Shown here: positions 1,806 to 8,543 of the stretch, piece after piece
Layout of the letters: each line of letters begins with the position of its first letter
Numbering within the stretch: position 1 is the first letter of the stretch
Source of the DNA: Candidatus Saccharimonadota bacterium
Lineage (GTDB): Bacteria > Patescibacteriota > Saccharimonadia > Saccharimonadales > UBA7683
Reading direction: 5' to 3'
Assembly: GCA_020427905.1 (NCBI GenBank)
Contig: JAGQNU010000003.1
Coordinates: forward strand, 1 to 10,659
DNA: 10,659 nt
The notes under the pieces: generated by a model
What the model was told of the DNA's origin: nothing
Databases searched by the model: none
What the model saw: only the letters and a program-made list of their open reading frames with translations
Program-made: the position numbers and the translations under genes

Positions 1806-2846
1806 TTATTTCTCTTCAGCGAGAGTGTAGGTTGCTTTGGCAACGCGCTTGAATTGGGGTTTACCCTGAAGATTGAGAAGGATGGTTGTTTCCTTCACCT
1901 GTCGACTCTTAAGTACTTCGCGGACGATATCGTCTCGGTGCATAGGCTCTTTGGATTTTTTAAGGACTTTAGTAATAATGTCGGACACAGTACCCTTGCT
2001 ATAGCCCCACTCCTTAAGTGCATAGATGCCACGGCCAATGAGGACAAAACGTGCATCCTTGATGAGTTCGTTATGAATTGCTTGGGTTGTGACATCTTTA
2101 CGCTTAAAGTCAGAATCTTTTATTTGCTCAGCAATCTCCGAAAAGTGCATTGGCTTACCTTGCTCCTGTAAGATAACAAAAATCTTGTCACGGATGTTCT
2201 TAGGATTAACCAGTGGCCACTTAAGGAGACCCCATTGATCCTTGAGGCTTGCAAGCTTCTTGCTGACACTTGCGAGTGCGCGTACGTGATCTGGGTGCTC
2301 GTAACCGTTTACAAGGCCGTGAAGTTGCGGGATAGTAACAGGCTCCCCGTGAGTCTTAATGGCCTTGACGATGTCGTTTACCTCACTCTTGAGCTTTGCC
2401 TGGTCAAAGTAGTCGGCGATAGCCACTGCTTGGTAGTAGTCATCGTTCTCATCAAGAACAGTAAGACCAGGTGCCAGTGTTGCCAGAAATGCAACGTGTG
2501 CTTTGTCTCGATCGTTGCCCTTCTCGCTTACTTTGGCAGCGAGGTCACTAACACGTGCTACGCGGCCCATCTCTGAGAGTTGCTTTACAAACTCCTTTTC
2601 AATATCTTCAACGTGGGGTAGCTCACCCTTCTCTGACGCAAGTTTAAGACGGATGAGGATAGCCTTCTCTAGCTGTCGGACGCGCTCACGGGTAATACCT
2701 AGTAACTCACCAATTTGCTCGAGTGTTTCTTTGCGGTCATAAAGTCCAAAGCGACGCGAAATAATCTCTCGCTCTCTCTCGCGATCGATAGTCTCCAAGA
2801 TATCCTTGGCTGTCTTTTTGATATCGAGTGCTTTCGCTTCGTCCAT
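1806..2846 (-). CDS. Sigma-70 region 4 / HARE-HTH transcription regulator
   Basis: This is a complete 346-residue protein starting at ATG 2846 behind an AGAGGA Shine-Dalgarno sequence. Residues 21-62 match sigma-70 region 4: EREREIISRRFGL, then the helix-turn-helix TLEQIGELLGITRERVRQLE, the part of a sigma factor that reads the -35 element. There is no region 2 or 3, so it cannot be a complete sigma factor. Residues about 218-280 are a HARE-HTH winged-helix domain like that in RNA polymerase delta subunit (RpoE) and ASXL proteins, and 286-343 look like a second, diverged copy. The middle (65-215) is helical and charged. Inference: a DNA-binding regulator or RNA polymerase accessory factor. 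It has its own promoter and sits downstream of RNA-B on the same strand, so readthrough from RNA-B is possible. Domain call is strong, role uncertain. Confidence 0.85.
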   Translation of the reverse strand: MDEAKALDIKKTAKDILETIDREREREIISRRFGLYDRKETLEQIGELLGITRERVRQLEKAILIRLKLASEKGELPHVEDIEKEFVKQLSEMGRVARVSDLAAKVSEKGNDRDKAHVAFLATLAPGLTVLDENDDYYQAVAIADYFDQAKLKSEVNDIVKAIKTHGEPVTIPQLHGLVNGYEHPDHVRALASVSKKLASLKDQWGLLKWPLVNPKNIRDKIFVILQEQGKPMHFSEIAEQIKDSDFKRKDVTTQAIHNELIKDARFVLIGRGIYALKEWGYSKGTVSDIITKVLKKSKEPMHRDDIVREVLKSRQVKETTILLNLQGKPQFKRVAKATYTLAEEK

Positions 2847-3065: not shown

Positions 3066-3695
3066 AGTTAAAAGCGCTCCATGATGCAGCGCCGCGAGCG
3101 GGTGAAAAAGTATCGCTCATGCGCGCTTCAGAGCGCTTAGATGGGTTGTCAACCCCGGGACCACACGTGGGTGGGACCGGACAGTGGCGGGAACTGCCCG
3201 TCACCAGGGAGGGAGCCACGTGGGCCCCGGGGTCGATCCTCAGGTGTCTGTGGCGAAAACGTCGCGAGCATCGCGCCAAATTCAGCGGCACAGAGCACCT
3301 GGCGGTCAACAGCAACTGTTGACCAGATATCGGACATATCCCTGCTGGCGCCAGGAGGGATAGAGGTTTCATCACAGGACAAGTATCCTGTGGCGACCCA
3401 AAGGGGTTACGATCCGCTTTGTGAGCACATGCTCTTGAAGGGGATCAGAAACTACTCCACCACCGCCGTGCTCGGCAAGAGGTGTGTCCGCTGAGTGTTG
3501 CGTGGGGTTTAGCCACATATCTCGCAAGAGGAGTCCCAGGAGGGGCACTCCGCGAGCTGCAACGACTCAGGCTAGGTTTTTAAAGACCTTGGGTGGGGGT
3601 TGCTTGAGGACAAGCCTCTGCATCCGTTAACGCGCTAGGCGTTGCGTGGTTACACAACCCCCACCACTTGGCACATTGAATGTCCTAGGAGGACA
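3066..3695 (-). ncRNA. RNA-B: candidate large structured RNA of about 630 nt, family unknown
   Basis: The tract has no credible gene: open frames are short and rich in Arg, Pro, Ser and Gly, as expected of GC-rich noncoding DNA. It is crowded with helices. Examples in plus coordinates: 3681-3685/3691-3695 at the extreme 5' end; 3592-3602/3655-3665 (11 bp, perfect), enclosing 3603-3606/3611-3614 and 3629-3633/3639-3643; 3373-3379/3386-3392 (7 bp); 3337-3347/3352-3362 (10 bp plus one G-G mismatch, loop gcgc); 3304-3312/3316-3324 (9 bp, perfect); and a compound arm, 3152-3159/3226-3233 plus 3164-3170/3216-3222, capped by 3184-3191/3197-3204. A perfect sigma-70 promoter sits just upstream on the minus strand, which sets the direction. 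The tract is far richer in G+C than the AT-rich DNA on both sides. I do not recognise the family; rnpB, ssrA, ffs and 6S hallmarks were not found. Confidence 0.65.
3073..3092 (-). terminator. Weak candidate terminator of RNA-B
   Basis: On the minus strand GCGCT (3088-3092) pairs with AGCGC (3074-3078) across a 9-nt loop and is followed by TTTTAA. The 5-bp stem and four-T tract are weak, so the exact 3' end of RNA-B is uncertain and readthrough toward the sigma4/HARE gene is possible. Confidence 0.35.
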
Positions 3696-3701
3696 AATAC
3701 T

Positions 3702-3729
3702 ATTATACATGATATGCACAATATGTCAA
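3702..3729 (-). promoter_or_regulatory. Perfect consensus promoter of RNA-B
   Basis: The minus strand carries TTGACA (3724-3729), a 16-nt spacer and TATAAT (3702-3707), with TG one base ahead of the -10. Both hexamers match consensus exactly, making this one of the two best promoters in the window. The start falls near 3694-3695, exactly where the first hairpin of RNA-B begins. No reading frame with a plausible start follows, so the transcript appears to be noncoding. Confidence 0.8.
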
Positions 3730-3747: not shown

Positions 3748-3784
3748 ATAAAAAAAGAGCCTCGCGGCAATTTTTGCGCGAGGC
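3748..3784 (-). terminator. Intrinsic terminator of RNA-A
   Basis: On the minus strand GCCTCGCG (3777-3784) pairs with CGCGAGGC (3759-3766) around a short AT-rich loop that can add three more pairs, and is followed by TCTTTTTTTA. The T-tract lies only on the minus-strand side, which fixes direction. It ends about 20 bases before the RNA-B -35 box, so the two RNAs form separate units. Confidence 0.85.
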
Positions 3785-4446
3785 GTGGGTTTGTGGCCCC
3801 TAGGGCACCGCTGGGTAGCTTCTTCTCCATCGAAGGCTTATCCAGCGGTGCCCCGTCCCCCCGGGTGTGTTCGGTATCCACTAGTGTGGGTCGATCACTA
3901 AGAGGGTGCCGGCAGGCGGGGCGGGAACCGCCTGCCGGCTAACGCTCCGGGGGTGGTGTCCGGAGCGCGATTGGTTGAGGGGGCTTGGCGCGGCGCTGCT
4001 ACGTCTCCAGCAGGCACGGGACGGAGTTGCTGCTGCCATCTTGCCCAGCCCCCTCAATGTGGTGAATAGTCTCCTAACCACCACGTTCTTCACGGATACC
4101 ATACTCAACAAGTATTACCCAAGCCGGAGCTGTGGTAGACCTGCTCCCCTTGTGGGGCGACGTTTGGAGTCGAGAGTGGAACAGAGTCAAGCTTCCATCC
4201 AGGGCATGTGATGCACCCCAGACTTTATGTGTATCCGCTAGGCGTCCTGAGGTTTTGAAGATCATCCGGATGGATGACTTGTCACCCAGGATACGTGGTA
4301 CTGGACTTCCGCTTCTGGTCCCCTTGGGGATCGGTGTAACGGGAGTGTATGCCACTTCGCCATGGTATATGAGCCAAAGACTCAGTTAACTGCTCGCCTG
4401 AGCAATAAACAGAATCTTTGACCCCACCATCATTTATCAAGGTGCG
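3748..4446 (-). ncRNA. RNA-A: candidate large structured RNA of about 700 nt, family unknown
   Basis: It lies downstream of topA on the same strand, bounded by a promoter and a strong terminator. Helices, in plus coordinates: 4375-4380/4415-4420 enclosing 4392-4395/4400-4403; 4146-4149/4154-4157 (loop ttgt); 4101-4105/4111-4115; 4059-4063/4077-4081; 3975-3985/4047-4057 (11 bp, perfect) enclosing 3996-4000/4009-4013; 3943-3950/3960-3967 (8 bp); 3908-3919/3928-3939 (12 bp, perfect, 8-nt loop); and 3803-3814/3842-3853 (12 bp, perfect) with an inner bulged stem. The 3' half is a string of strong arms, while the 5' half (4130-4370) shows fewer obvious helices and may hold single-stranded or long-range paired elements. 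I see no tRNA-like domain, no tag frame and no RNase P core. The start is set by the promoter and the end by the terminator. Function unknown. Confidence 0.65.
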
Positions 4447-4452
4447 AGAACT

Positions 4453-4481
4453 ACTGTATGTGCTCGAGCTTTGCATGTCAA
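4453..4481 (-). promoter_or_regulatory. Promoter of RNA-A
   Basis: The minus strand has TTGACA (4476-4481), a 17-nt spacer and TACAGT (4453-4458). The -35 box is perfect and the -10 matches 4 of 6. The start would be about 4446. It lies between the topA stop codon (4514) and the structured tract, and no terminator separates topA from it, so RNA-A may also receive topA readthrough. Confidence 0.6.
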
Positions 4482-4513: not shown

Positions 4514-6868
4514 CTAGGACTTCTTCTTGGTGCTTGGCTTTCGGGTTGTCTTTTTGGCTGGAGCTTTGCGGCCTCTGAAGCCTTTCTTCTCTGGTGCCTC
4601 GGCAATCATCTGCTTTGCCTGCTCCTCGGTGATTGATTTAGGATCGGTGTCTTTAGGGACTTTGGCGTTCTTTTTGCCATCTGTGACGTAGGGGCCAAAC
4701 CGGCCATTGAGCACTTTCAGACCGCCGCCGAAGTCGGCGATGTTCTTCTCAGCCTCAGCTTTAAGTTTGGCGGCGTAGAGCTCCTTGGCCTCTTTTAGAG
4801 TAATCGTGTGCGGATCAAGAGGTTTAATACTGACAAAGAGCTTCTCAACTTGAATATAGGGCCCAAAACGACCAATGTTTGCCTTAATGTCTTGTCCTTC
4901 ATCTGTTTGACCAACAACTCTTGGGAGCTCAAAAGCCTTCAGCGCCTCCTCAATTGTGACAGTCTCAAGCTTGGCACCCTTTGGCAGTGGTGCAAATTGG
5001 GGCTTTTCTTCATCCTCAGTGTCACCGAGTTGCAACATTGGGCCATAGCGACCAAAGCGAGCCAGGATTGGCTTGCCAGATTTTGGATGTTTACCGATCT
5101 CTCGAGCCTGGGCTACTTTAGAGCGGTCAATGTCACCAGACTTCTCTATCAGCTTGTGGAATGGATCATAAAACTCTTGGAGCATATCGTTGCGCTTCAA
5201 CTTGCCCTCGGCAACCTCATCAAACTCCTCCTCTACCCTTGCGGTGAAGCCATAATCGATAACTGGGTCAAAGTGGTTACTCAAAAAGTCACTGACAACC
5301 TGGCCGCTGGCGGTCGGTACAAGTTTACCTTTATTAGAGCCAGTCTTCTCCTCCTCGACTACTCTCTCAACAGAGGTGCCCTTGGTAGAAAGCACGATAA
5401 CCTCGCGTGGCTCACCTTCGGATTCGCCGCGTTCGGCGTAGCCACGCACTTGTACGGTGTTAATGATAGTGGCGTAGGTTGATGGGCGGCCGATGCCAAG
5501 CTCCTCGAGCTTCTTAACTAAACTACCCTCGGTATAACGTGCTGGCGGTCGGGCAAAAGTTTGACGAGCCTGTGCAAGTCGTAGCTTTAATGTGTCGCTG
5601 GCCGCGAGTGGCGGTAGAATCTCCGGATCCTTTTTGCTTGCGCCATACACCTTCAGAAAACCATCAAATATCACGACCTCGCCCTTGGCCTCAAATACTT
5701 CTTTAGCAGTAGAGATAGTAATAGTGATGGTTGTCTTCTCAAGTTTGGCGGGCGCCATTTGACTGGCAAGTGTGCGACGCCGGATGAGATCATACAACTT
5801 TTGGTTGTAGGTGTCAGAACTGGCTACCTCGAGACTGACATCAGTTGGGCGGATGGCCTCATGCGCCTCCTGGGCGCTGGAGTTTTTAGTCTTGAAGGTT
5901 CTGAACTGGTGATAGTCCTCACCGAATTGCTTTTTGATATAGCTTGTCATCTGGGCGAGTGACTGTTTGGAGAGGTTGACCGAGTCAGTACGCATGTAGG
6001 TGATCTTACCGTCTTGATAAAGCTTTTGGGCAGCGCCCATGGTGGCTTTAGAGCCAAAGCCAAGGCGCGAGTTGGCATCTTGCTGCAAAGAGCTGGTTGT
6101 ATACGGTGCGCCTGGGTTACGTGTACCTGGTGATTTAGTGACGTCGCTGACGGTGAAATCGGCGTCTTTGAGGCTCTCAAGGAACTTGCTTGCCTCCTTC
6201 TCGGTGTCAAAGCGTTTTGGAAGCTCTGCTTTGAATGTCTCACTACCGTGCTTGAACTCAGCTGTAACCTTAAACTGAAATGACCCCTCAAAAGCCTCGA
6301 TCTCACGCTCACGCTCAACGAGTAACTTCACGGCCGGAGACTGCACGCGACCAGCAGATTTGCCGCCGGGTACCTTTTGCCAGACGACTGGAGAAAGTTC
6401 AAAGCCAACGATTCTATCGAGTATTTGGCGAGCTTGCTGGGCCTGCACCAAGTTCATATCGACAGTACGCGGGTTCTGAACCGCCTCTGTTATGGCGTCT
6501 TTAGTAATCTCATGGAACACAATACGGTTGGTAGTTTTTGGATCGAGTTTTAACACCTCGCACAGATGCCAGGCAATTGCCTCTCCCTCGCGGTCTTCAT
6601 CAGTTGCCAGCCAGACAGTCGTGGCATCTTTGACAGCCTTCTTCAGCTCAGTGATGACCTTCTTCTTCTCTGGATCTACCTCATATTCAGTTTTAAAGCC
6701 GTTTTTTATATCAATAGCCTGGCCGCCATCTTTGGCCTTTTTGGGGATAGAACGGATGTGGCCAACAGATGAGAGTACTTTGAAATCACTCCCGAGGTAC
6801 TTCTCGATAGTCTTGGCCTTTGCCGGGCTCTCTACTATAACCAGATTCTTCTTTGCGCTTGTGCTCAT
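4514..6868 (-). CDS. topA: DNA topoisomerase I (type IA)
   Basis: The enzyme relaxes negative supercoils by cutting one strand through a 5'-phosphotyrosine. ATG 6868 gives 784 residues beginning MSTSAKKNLVIVESPAKAKT; the frame continues to a TTG at 6898, but the TOPRIM sequence starts right after the ATG. TOPRIM residues are Glu13 and the DEDRE acidic triad Asp90/Asp92/Glu94. SAGRVQSPAV lies at 171-180. The catalytic tyrosine is Tyr291 in GKITYMRTDS. The C-terminal third carries three GRFGPY or GRYGP repeats (Topo_C_Rpt type) and a tail rich in Lys and Arg. The four-cysteine zinc fingers of E. coli TopA are absent, as in many small-genome bacteria. It lies 89 bases after dprA on the same strand, a common dprA-topA operon order. 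No strong Shine-Dalgarno sequence is seen. Confidence 0.97.
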   Translation of the reverse strand: MSTSAKKNLVIVESPAKAKTIEKYLGSDFKVLSSVGHIRSIPKKAKDGGQAIDIKNGFKTEYEVDPEKKKVITELKKAVKDATTVWLATDEDREGEAIAWHLCEVLKLDPKTTNRIVFHEITKDAITEAVQNPRTVDMNLVQAQQARQILDRIVGFELSPVVWQKVPGGKSAGRVQSPAVKLLVEREREIEAFEGSFQFKVTAEFKHGSETFKAELPKRFDTEKEASKFLESLKDADFTVSDVTKSPGTRNPGAPYTTSSLQQDANSRLGFGSKATMGAAQKLYQDGKITYMRTDSVNLSKQSLAQMTSYIKKQFGEDYHQFRTFKTKNSSAQEAHEAIRPTDVSLEVASSDTYNQKLYDLIRRRTLASQMAPAKLEKTTITITISTAKEVFEAKGEVVIFDGFLKVYGASKKDPEILPPLAASDTLKLRLAQARQTFARPPARYTEGSLVKKLEELGIGRPSTYATIINTVQVRGYAERGESEGEPREVIVLSTKGTSVERVVEEEKTGSNKGKLVPTASGQVVSDFLSNHFDPVIDYGFTARVEEEFDEVAEGKLKRNDMLQEFYDPFHKLIEKSGDIDRSKVAQAREIGKHPKSGKPILARFGRYGPMLQLGDTEDEEKPQFAPLPKGAKLETVTIEEALKAFELPRVVGQTDEGQDIKANIGRFGPYIQVEKLFVSIKPLDPHTITLKEAKELYAAKLKAEAEKNIADFGGGLKVLNGRFGPYVTDGKKNAKVPKDTDPKSITEEQAKQMIAEAPEKKGFRGRKAPAKKTTRKPSTKKKS

Positions 6869-6957
6869 TACAATTGTCCAGTGTCGAGCATTTAACAAAT
6901 AAATGCAACAGGAACCAACGTTACACGACCGACTATGTGCACGTCAAGCATCAACAC

Positions 6958-7815: not shown

Positions 7816-7835
7816 ACAATTATCTATTTTAGGTA

Positions 7836-7864
7836 TTGACAATATTAGATTTGGGTGCTAATAT
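7836..7864 (+). promoter_or_regulatory. Promoter of RNA-C
   Basis: TTGACA (7836-7841), a 17-nt spacer ending in TGC, and TAATAT (7859-7864) form a perfect -35 box with an extended -10. The start would be near 7871-7873, immediately before the first hairpin. The -35 box would sit inside the dprA frame if the upstream TTG start at 7842 were used, an argument for the ATG at 7815. Confidence 0.65.
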
Positions 7865-7870
7865 GGTAAT

Positions 7871-8230
7871 TCGTAAGCGACATTAGATCGCTTTCGCACC
7901 TTTTATACCCCATTGTAACACTTCCGAGTAATCGGAAACTGTTAGGAAGTCCTCTCAGGTAGTCATAAAGTTTTTACCCTCCACTTTTTAACTTAGGCAA
8001 GAACGACTGTTCGCTTGAAGCCGATCCTAGAGGATCTTCTAACCCCTTTAACCCTACCCCTACCATCTTCGGTTGGTTGGAGTAATTCAACGGTGAGTCA
8101 TCACAGATTCCCGCAGTAGCGGGAGACGCAGGCGTCCGAGAGAGACATGCTTGACGTTTCATCCGGGTGGGTTGAAGGGTATTATCAGCGCCCAGCAGTG
8201 CCCACCCCTGCTGGGCGCTGTTTATTTATT
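7871..8230 (+). ncRNA. RNA-C: candidate structured RNA of about 360 nt, family unknown
   Basis: A complete transcription unit with promoter and terminator but no credible gene. Helices: 7875-7880/7888-7893 (6 bp); 7922-7927/7932-7937 with a GTAA tetraloop; 8001-8004/8009-8012; 8023-8027/8032-8036; a long-range helix pairing 8044-8054 plus 8056-8059 with 8165-8179 (15 pairs, one bulged T), enclosing 8062-8067/8072-8077 with a C(TTCG)G tetraloop, 8109-8114/8119-8124 and 8125-8128/8133-8136. The closing helix around several arms is typical of a folded RNA domain. The length fits rnpB or ssrA, but I find no convincing RNase P core (AGGAAGTCC at 7944-7952 resembles part of it, without the partner strand) and no tRNA-like end with a T-arm. 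It could be a diverged housekeeping RNA or something new. Confidence 0.65.
8186..8230 (+). terminator. Strong intrinsic terminator of RNA-C
   Basis: CAGCGCCCAGCAG (8186-8198) pairs perfectly with CTGCTGGGCGCTG (8208-8220) across a 9-nt loop, followed by TTTATTTATT. A 13-bp GC-rich stem with a following T-rich tail is a clear plus-strand terminator. Its tail runs into the -35 box of the next gene. Confidence 0.92.
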
Positions 8231-8258
8231 GACAAAATAAGTAATAAAATTGTATAAT
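8229..8258 (+). promoter_or_regulatory. Consensus promoter of the small acidic protein gene
   Basis: TTGACA (8229-8234) and TATAAT (8253-8258) are both perfect, separated by 18 nt. Only six bases (ctttat) lie between the -10 box and ATG 8265, so transcription should begin at or next to the A of the start codon. Confidence 0.8.
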
Positions 8259-8264
8259 CTTTAT

Positions 8265-8543
8265 ATGACAGAACGTAACATTAGTGGCCCAGACGAGCAT
8301 AACGATGCGTCAGTGCCGGAAGTTATAGATACGAGTAGATCTCTACTCATTGCTGAACTACTTTTTGAGTTATCGAATCCAACAATGGACTACCGCGATA
8401 GACAATCACTAATGGATACAGTACAAAGACTTAATGGTGGTGTATATCCTGATGCGCGACAACAAGCCATGCTGCTCACTATGTACCGGGCTGCTCGTCA
8501 CGAGGAAGAGCATCACGATGCAGGGCCTGATATTCCAGGATAG
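8265..8543 (+). CDS. Small acidic protein, unknown function (probably leaderless mRNA)
   Basis: I do not recognise this 92-residue protein, which starts MTERNISGPDEHND and ends HDAGPDIPG. The frame extends five codons upstream to a TTG, but that lies ahead of the -10 box, so ATG 8265 is the real start. It is acidic overall, with disordered-looking ends rich in Asp, Glu, Pro and Gly and a helical middle (about 24-80) rich in Leu, Met, Arg and Gln. It has no signal peptide, membrane segment or cysteine. A perfect promoter directly upstream and a strong terminator 23 bases after the stop make it a compact single-gene unit, which argues that it is real. It converges on pth, with one base between the two stop codons. 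It could be a small regulator or adaptor, but nothing in the sequence decides this. Confidence 0.75.
   Translation: MTERNISGPDEHNDASVPEVIDTSRSLLIAELLFELSNPTMDYRDRQSLMDTVQRLNGGVYPDARQQAMLLTMYRAARHEEEHHDAGPDIPG

Follow-up and report, generated by a model that had tools for sequence, protein, structure and literature searches.

Few bacterial RNAs as large and complex as those considered here are known, and the closest described systems are OLE, GOLLD, ROOL and raiA. GOLLD and ROOL are found in phages or prophages, in some cases alongside tRNAs. According to the extracts of PMC12286853 available to us, the functions of GOLLD, ROOL and OLE are poorly understood, and one loop of OLE switches palindromes (GGCC to GAUC or AGCU), which is taken as evidence of self-pairing. 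Extracts of other sources give OLE a size of ~600 nt (PMC9723947, PMC12054373) and report raiA from >2,500 species (PMC11706538).

Here, we analyze a stretch of 10,659 nt (hereafter, the window) that forms positions 1–10659 of contig JAGQNU010000003.1 in assembly GCA_020427905.1, a Candidatus Saccharimonadota genome that is 76.9% complete in 132 contigs. Between topA and a regulator gene, the window contains two tandem units, RNA-A and RNA-B, which probably represent a class of large structured noncoding RNA that has not been described before and that, as far as searched, is confined to one Saccharibacteria family. Among the matches listed for open-licence PubMed Central articles, the extracts contained no description of RNA-A, RNA-B or a large Saccharibacteria RNA. 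For a lineage with reduced genomes, it would be surprising to invest ~1.4 kb of noncoding DNA, with a perfect promoter, in a tandem pair of this kind.

Organization of the locus

The gap between topA and the gene for a protein with Sigma70 region 4 and HARE-HTH domains (hereafter, the regulator gene) spans 1.67 kb in the window. Its minus strand is organized as two units, first RNA-A and then RNA-B, with the following features:

4514–6898, minus strand: topA (DNA topoisomerase), the upstream gene, by domain assignment
4453–4481, minus strand: promoter-like site of RNA-A, TTGACA-17-TACAGT, 10/12 (pattern scan)
3750–4446, minus strand: RNA-A, a predicted sister structured RNA of ~700 nt (fold z of −9.1; homologue in the relative G001)
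3750–3784, minus strand: terminator-like GC-rich hairpin of RNA-A (10 pairs, one bulge) with a T run (folds; pairing kept in G001)
3702–3729, minus strand: promoter of RNA-B, TTGACA-16-TATAAT, 12/12 (promoter pattern scan and shuffles)
3066–3695, minus strand: RNA-B, a predicted structured noncoding transcript of ~630 nt (fold z and G001 homologue)
3681–3695, minus strand: hairpin UGUCCU-CCU-AGGACA at the predicted start of RNA-B (sequence and fold)
1806–2846, minus strand: the regulator gene, downstream (Sigma70 region 4 and HARE-HTH)

The initial annotation of this DNA, made for RNA-B, had described a perfect minus-strand promoter with a hairpin at the predicted 5' end of the transcript, and we find both in place (3729–3702 and 3695–3681, respectively). 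The window has only one other 12/12 site, on the plus strand at 8229–8258, and none of 100 dinucleotide shuffles has any. The promoter-like site of RNA-A is not significant by itself, as three sites of its quality were found vs 1.9 in shuffles; at the matching place, G001 has TTGACT-17-TATAAA. The RNA-B promoter begins 20 bases past the terminator-like hairpin of RNA-A. As read from the fold, RNA-B probably ends in a compound hairpin followed by UUUU. The pattern scan, which allows only short loops and no bulge, listed no minus-strand terminator for either RNA.

Comparison with a relative from another genus

The genome G001, from a different genus of the same family, has the regulator gene, the RNA-B unit, the RNA-A unit and topA in the same order. 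From the TATAAT to the terminal UUUU, RNA-B measures 638 nt in the window and 632 nt in G001, with 46% identity over 601 columns. RNA-A, taken from the −35 box through the terminator hairpin, is 723 and 728 nt long, respectively, with 49% identity over 678 columns. The RNA-B promoter of G001 is likewise 12/12, with a 17-nt spacer, at the matching place (L034 1527–1499). Because lengths (within 1%) and signals are kept at 46–49% identity, we conclude that the length and signals of the RNAs are conserved and their sequence is not. The surrounding DNA is more similar: the stretch from RNA-B to the regulator gene is 80% identical over 200 columns, topA 70% and dprA 65%. The RNAs may be evolving at an unusually high rate, or each genus may have acquired its own, diverged copy.

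A BLASTN comparison with Saccharibacteria genomes had been put forward as a check in the initial annotation. With RNA-B as the query against 60 genomes (its own and G001 included), blastn did not report the G001 homologue, which was located by synteny; RNA-B thereby shows how such RNAs slip past sequence searches. The sole blastn match of RNA-B outside its own genome, in G022, is a promoter-like stretch before another gene and was rejected. RNA-A is recognizable in G001 by blastn (62% over 351 columns, E of 1e-11). The RNA region of G001 also matches nine other genomes, all of one family (f34), and these matches were set aside, eight falling on the promoter and one elsewhere. Divergence to 46–49%, vs 80% in the flanks, at constant length amounts to a natural experiment on which parts of the RNAs matter.

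Predicted fold of RNA-B

RNA-B folds far more stably than its shuffled versions (z of −10.8 with 20 shuffles and −9.5 with 40), vs −1.0, +0.05 and +0.6 for three coding stretches of the window, and the two G001 copies behave alike (sense z of −9.7 and −9.3). Strongly negative values are unspecific, as three of ten loci from other Saccharibacteria with a long gap at this site (L064, L081 and L055) have z of −5.0 to −7.6; the 650-nt pieces entered into the same comparison gave −7.1 for the window (mostly RNA-A) and −8.1 for G001. Because L055, where the matching place holds a small frame, reaches −7.6, a very negative z alone is no proof of a structured RNA. The case for RNA-B as a predicted structured RNA is carried by the comparison with G001 and not by z alone. 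Two of the helices named in the initial annotation, a long stem closing a pair of hairpins and a 9-bp hairpin, recur in our folds, which include the following parts:

3591–3665, minus strand: arm 1, a long stem closing a two-hairpin domain (fold; an arm with no clear sequence similarity occupies the equivalent position in G001)
3331–3490, minus strand: multibranched central domain (fold)
3337–3362, minus strand: hairpin with a palindromic apex (GGCGCC; GUGCAC in G001), flanked by common GAAACC and UAUGU
3303–3325, minus strand: arm 5, a 9-bp hairpin plus a further G-U pair (both partners differ in 2 of 7 compared pairs)
3242–3301, minus strand: arm 6, a long arm (both partners differ in 3 of 6 compared pairs)
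3146–3239, minus strand: arm 7, a long arm with an inner UCCCGCC loop at 3192–3186 (both partners differ in 3 of 9 compared outer pairs)
3067–3138, minus strand: arm 8, a compound 3' hairpin ending in UUUU, the probable terminator (outer stem identical in G001, 7/7 pairs)

Base pairing in the two genomes

Anchored pairs are standard in both genomes in 71 of 71 cases (42 in RNA-A and 29 in RNA-B), and 16 of them are changed on both sides. With two sequences only, this covariation is statistically weak. For RNA-B, the helices were picked by hand after viewing both folds and anchored by hand on common sequence; in the four arms so anchored, 29/29 pairs are standard in both genomes, with eight changed on both sides and two on one side, vs 11–14 of 29 paired and 0–2 both-side changes in slid controls. 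A lack of covariation in the listed helices had been named in the initial annotation as grounds for rejecting the RNA, and in this two-sequence comparison the helices compared hold. For the 3' domain of RNA-A, tested on MAFFT alignments with a structure drawn from both folds, 42/42 pairs are standard in the window and G001, eight changed on both sides and three on one; sliding the partner by 1–3 columns leaves 34–53% paired with 0–1 both-side changes. A letter-shuffle control reached the observed values of this domain in 71 of 500 shuffles on alignment A8 and 12 of 500 on alignment A12.

The pairs tested are a minority of those predicted (29 of 223 in RNA-B and 42 of 243 in RNA-A). RNA-A P3 and RNA-B arms 1–4 were excluded from the counts because MAFFT misaligned several stems; between the window and G001, the arms outside these counts agree in their order and approximate size alone.

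We also aligned the RNAs by structure only. Against shuffles, the RNA-B pair scored z of 4.6 and 4.8, and cross pairs of RNA-A with RNA-B scored equally high, so the shuffle controls were replaced by rotations. Across 22 rotations, the true register was best for both RNAs (z of 2.7 and 3.5): RNA-B scored 317.9, vs a rotation mean of 277 and a nearly equal maximum of 317.3 at the smallest rotation, and RNA-A scored 391, vs a mean of 328 and a maximum of 376. In the A/B cross-comparisons, the true register was not best. On structure-fitted alignments, RNA-B has 66 pairs in common, vs 0–55 in 15 rotations, and RNA-A has 67, vs 0–73, with small rotations reaching up to 73; A/B cross pairs gave 8–36 and reverse complements 36 and 10. 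This second measure supports RNA-B and not RNA-A. Its shared pairs were left out of the covariation evidence, as the controls are also rich in both-side changes. Altogether, the computational comparison shows a conserved promoter, length and predicted arm order and base pairing in the face of strong sequence divergence.

Common ancestry of RNA-A and RNA-B was considered and rejected, as the two have no sequence similarity and their structural cross-comparisons are not best in register. The resemblance that is left is the UCCCGCC apical loop alone, in three of the four RNAs: RNA-B of the window and RNA-A of both genomes (3927–3920 on the minus strand of the window).

Distribution of the RNAs

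Under strict filters, covariance models R2 and R1 (RNA-A) and R3 (the 3' arm of RNA-B) gave strong matches only in the genome of the window and in G001, among 392, 392 and 384 genomes of the order, respectively. Weak R1 matches in seven genomes (E of 0.002–0.04) reached 18–24 bits vs 117 and 150 for the true pair and were deemed chance or terminator-like. Of the three family genomes covered, two have the RNA pair. In the third (G002, 81% complete), a single contig carries the beginning of the regulator gene and topA, separated by ~500 bases that include a small frame and neither RNA. By blastn, neither the 50,697 phage records nor the 72,556 plasmid records searched gave a match, and two exact patterns were absent from viral contigs. 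The pattern search of genomes covered 392 of the class, G001 not among them.

Elsewhere in the window, a further candidate, RNA-C (7835–8226, plus strand), is arranged divergently to dprA. TTGACA-17-TAATAT was read by eye, and the end of RNA-C carries a GC-rich hairpin. RNA-C has fold z of −5.4 on the plus strand and −5.7 on the minus strand, no Rfam match, 90% identity in G001 and 72% in G002, and a 3' hairpin region that blastn recognizes in ~30 other loci. Unlike RNA-A and RNA-B, RNA-C is conserved and widespread, and it may therefore be the more important RNA of the window. The plus-strand 12/12 site mentioned above has an 18-nt spacer, and the 97-aa frame that follows it matches nothing in Pfam (8229–8543); G001 has a 12/12 site with the same spacer at L034 6160–6189.

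Alternative explanations

RNA-B could be read as a long cis-regulatory 5' leader of the regulator gene: both are on one strand, with RNA-B upstream, and nothing more than UUUU comes after its 3' hairpin, so that read-through is possible. The regulator gene is far more widespread than the RNA: 56 of 60 relatives have a strong match (E of 4e-36 or better; the remaining four only ~1e-8), vs 2 of 384–392 genomes for the RNA. The gene also has its own promoter-like site at 2919–2891, similar sites precede it in G001 as well as in genomes that lack the RNA, and ~220 nt of AT-rich DNA (28% GC) separate it from RNA-B. A strong match in most relatives, together with these promoter-like sites, makes a leader function unlikely.

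Another reading takes the stretch as a small cassette that encodes, or before decay encoded, a protein, as apparently found at this place in other Saccharibacteria. We surveyed the gap upstream of the regulator gene in 54 of 71 loci (excluding three at contig edges, two from family members and 12 from outside Saccharibacteria), measuring from the nearest frame of at least 160 aa, which is not always topA; four of the 54 gaps start at a contig end. The gap is 128–328 nt in 40 loci, 375–489 nt in four and 676–1337 nt in ten, and the ten long-gap loci have ATG frames of 83–150 aa. Their small frames differ (L055, L056, L060, L061, L064, L066, L069, L072, L075 and L081); by eye, the small hydrophobic proteins encoded at L055 and L061 resemble each other, and L064 and L066 have nearly the same frame. 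A cassette would fit these loci, the strong fold at L055, the small frame at the same place in G002 and a 124-aa ATG frame in the RNA stretch of the window. It would leave unexplained that no frame is common with G001 (best tblastn E of 0.39 for RNA-B frames and 0.048 for RNA-A frames) and that length, promoter and paired stems are kept, which is unexpected under decay. The longest minus-strand frame at RNA-B, 125 aa with a GTG start, also has no counterpart in G001 (tblastn E of 0.41 for the part inside the RNA). We regard a coding cassette as improbable here, in line with the initial annotation, which saw no credible gene in these ~630 nt. The site upstream of the regulator gene may be a place where small cassettes are taken up, the RNA pair being the one taken up here.

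Rfam 15 includes OLE, GOLLD, ROOL and raiA. At gathering scores, cmscan against it gave no match in the window or G001, and in permissive searches the only families listed were unrelated ones that stayed well short of their cut-offs (E of 0.03 at best in the window and 0.004 in G001), with none of those four families in either search. The best permissive match in G001 is a microRNA model, which we take to be plant-type, on a long hairpin (27 bits vs a cut-off of 130). Neither covariance models nor gene finders matched RNase P RNA, tmRNA or a group II intron, and no tRNA or tmRNA gene was found in the window. A very diverged member of a known family (OLE, GOLLD, ROOL, raiA, RNase P, tmRNA or group II intron) would have a size and complexity in the same range, given the ~600 nt stated for OLE in extracts of PMC9723947 and PMC12054373, and is, in view of these searches, quite unlikely. 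The proposal of a new or CPR-specific large structured RNA, whose novelty an Rfam hit would have refuted, stands as to the Rfam result and the restriction to Saccharibacteria among the genomes searched, and is now widened from one RNA to a tandem pair.

It is very improbable that features of the DNA itself (palindromes, a replication or recombination site) give rise to the strong fold: the antisense strand of RNA-B also folds well (z of −8.0), but the perfect promoter is kept in G001 and the sense strand folds better than the antisense in all four RNAs (the two RNAs of each genome, antisense z of −8.0, −4.9, −7.4 and −5.2).

Proposed mechanism

Returning to RNA-A and RNA-B as structured noncoding RNAs, each would stand as a unit by itself, complete with promoter and terminator, and RNA-B would be strongly transcribed. 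It would serve neither as a messenger nor as the leader of the next gene. With a leader unlikely and no frame in common with G001, an RNA acting in trans remains, and RNA-B may do so as a folded molecule, as a structural or protein-binding RNA. The constant length and arm order, the UCCCGCC apical loop and the switching palindromic apex point to an architectural or binding role. The least certain step is that RNA-B might assemble with its own copies or with RNA-A.

In the predicted folds, the palindromic apex of RNA-B, which differs between the genera, hints at self-pairing or a homo-oligomer. The hairpin is unformed in the whole-RNA minimum of G001, where forcing it costs 4.8 kcal/mol, and in the window the apex may be no more than a continuation of the stem. 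No 6-base palindrome lies in a loop in the minimum-energy hairpins of either genome at this place; by arithmetic, the chance of one in a 7-base loop is ~1/32. A fuller model, in which RNA-A and RNA-B form a new RNA particle and RNA-B copies pair via a genus-specific palindrome (GGCGCC vs GUGCAC) while the rest drifts freely and the arms keep their size and order, is speculative and, as a whole, doubtful. An anti-Shine-Dalgarno mimic was considered and rejected: CCUCCU occurs three times vs 0.3 in RNA-B of the window, but once vs 0.2 in G001 (20% of shuffles).

Comparison with known large RNAs

The features that mark a large structured noncoding RNA were found at this locus: a promoter and terminator of its own (the terminators being read from folds), no conserved frame, and compensatory changes, in two sequences. 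A phage or tRNA setting of the GOLLD/ROOL type was not found, to judge by tRNA genes in the window and blastn against phage and plasmid records, neither of which gave a match.

In the extracts of PMC12286853, GOLLD and ROOL appear as large, ornate, sequence-variable bacterial or phage RNAs with stems kept by covariation, which RNA-A and RNA-B resemble; the latter two differ in having no covariance-model match, no phage-record match and no tRNA in the window. The likeness to raiA is that of a structured bacterial noncoding RNA, raiA having an ordered three-dimensional fold according to the same extracts (PMC12286853). The raiA RNA is reported from >2,500 species (extract of PMC11706538), whereas RNA-B is in two genomes and has no model match. 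Finally, OLE is described, in the extracts available, as well conserved and mostly from Bacillota, whereas RNA-B diverges fast and matches no model. RNA-B is nonetheless like OLE in its ~600 nt and elaborate predicted fold, and its palindromic hairpin resembles the loop in which OLE switches palindromes.
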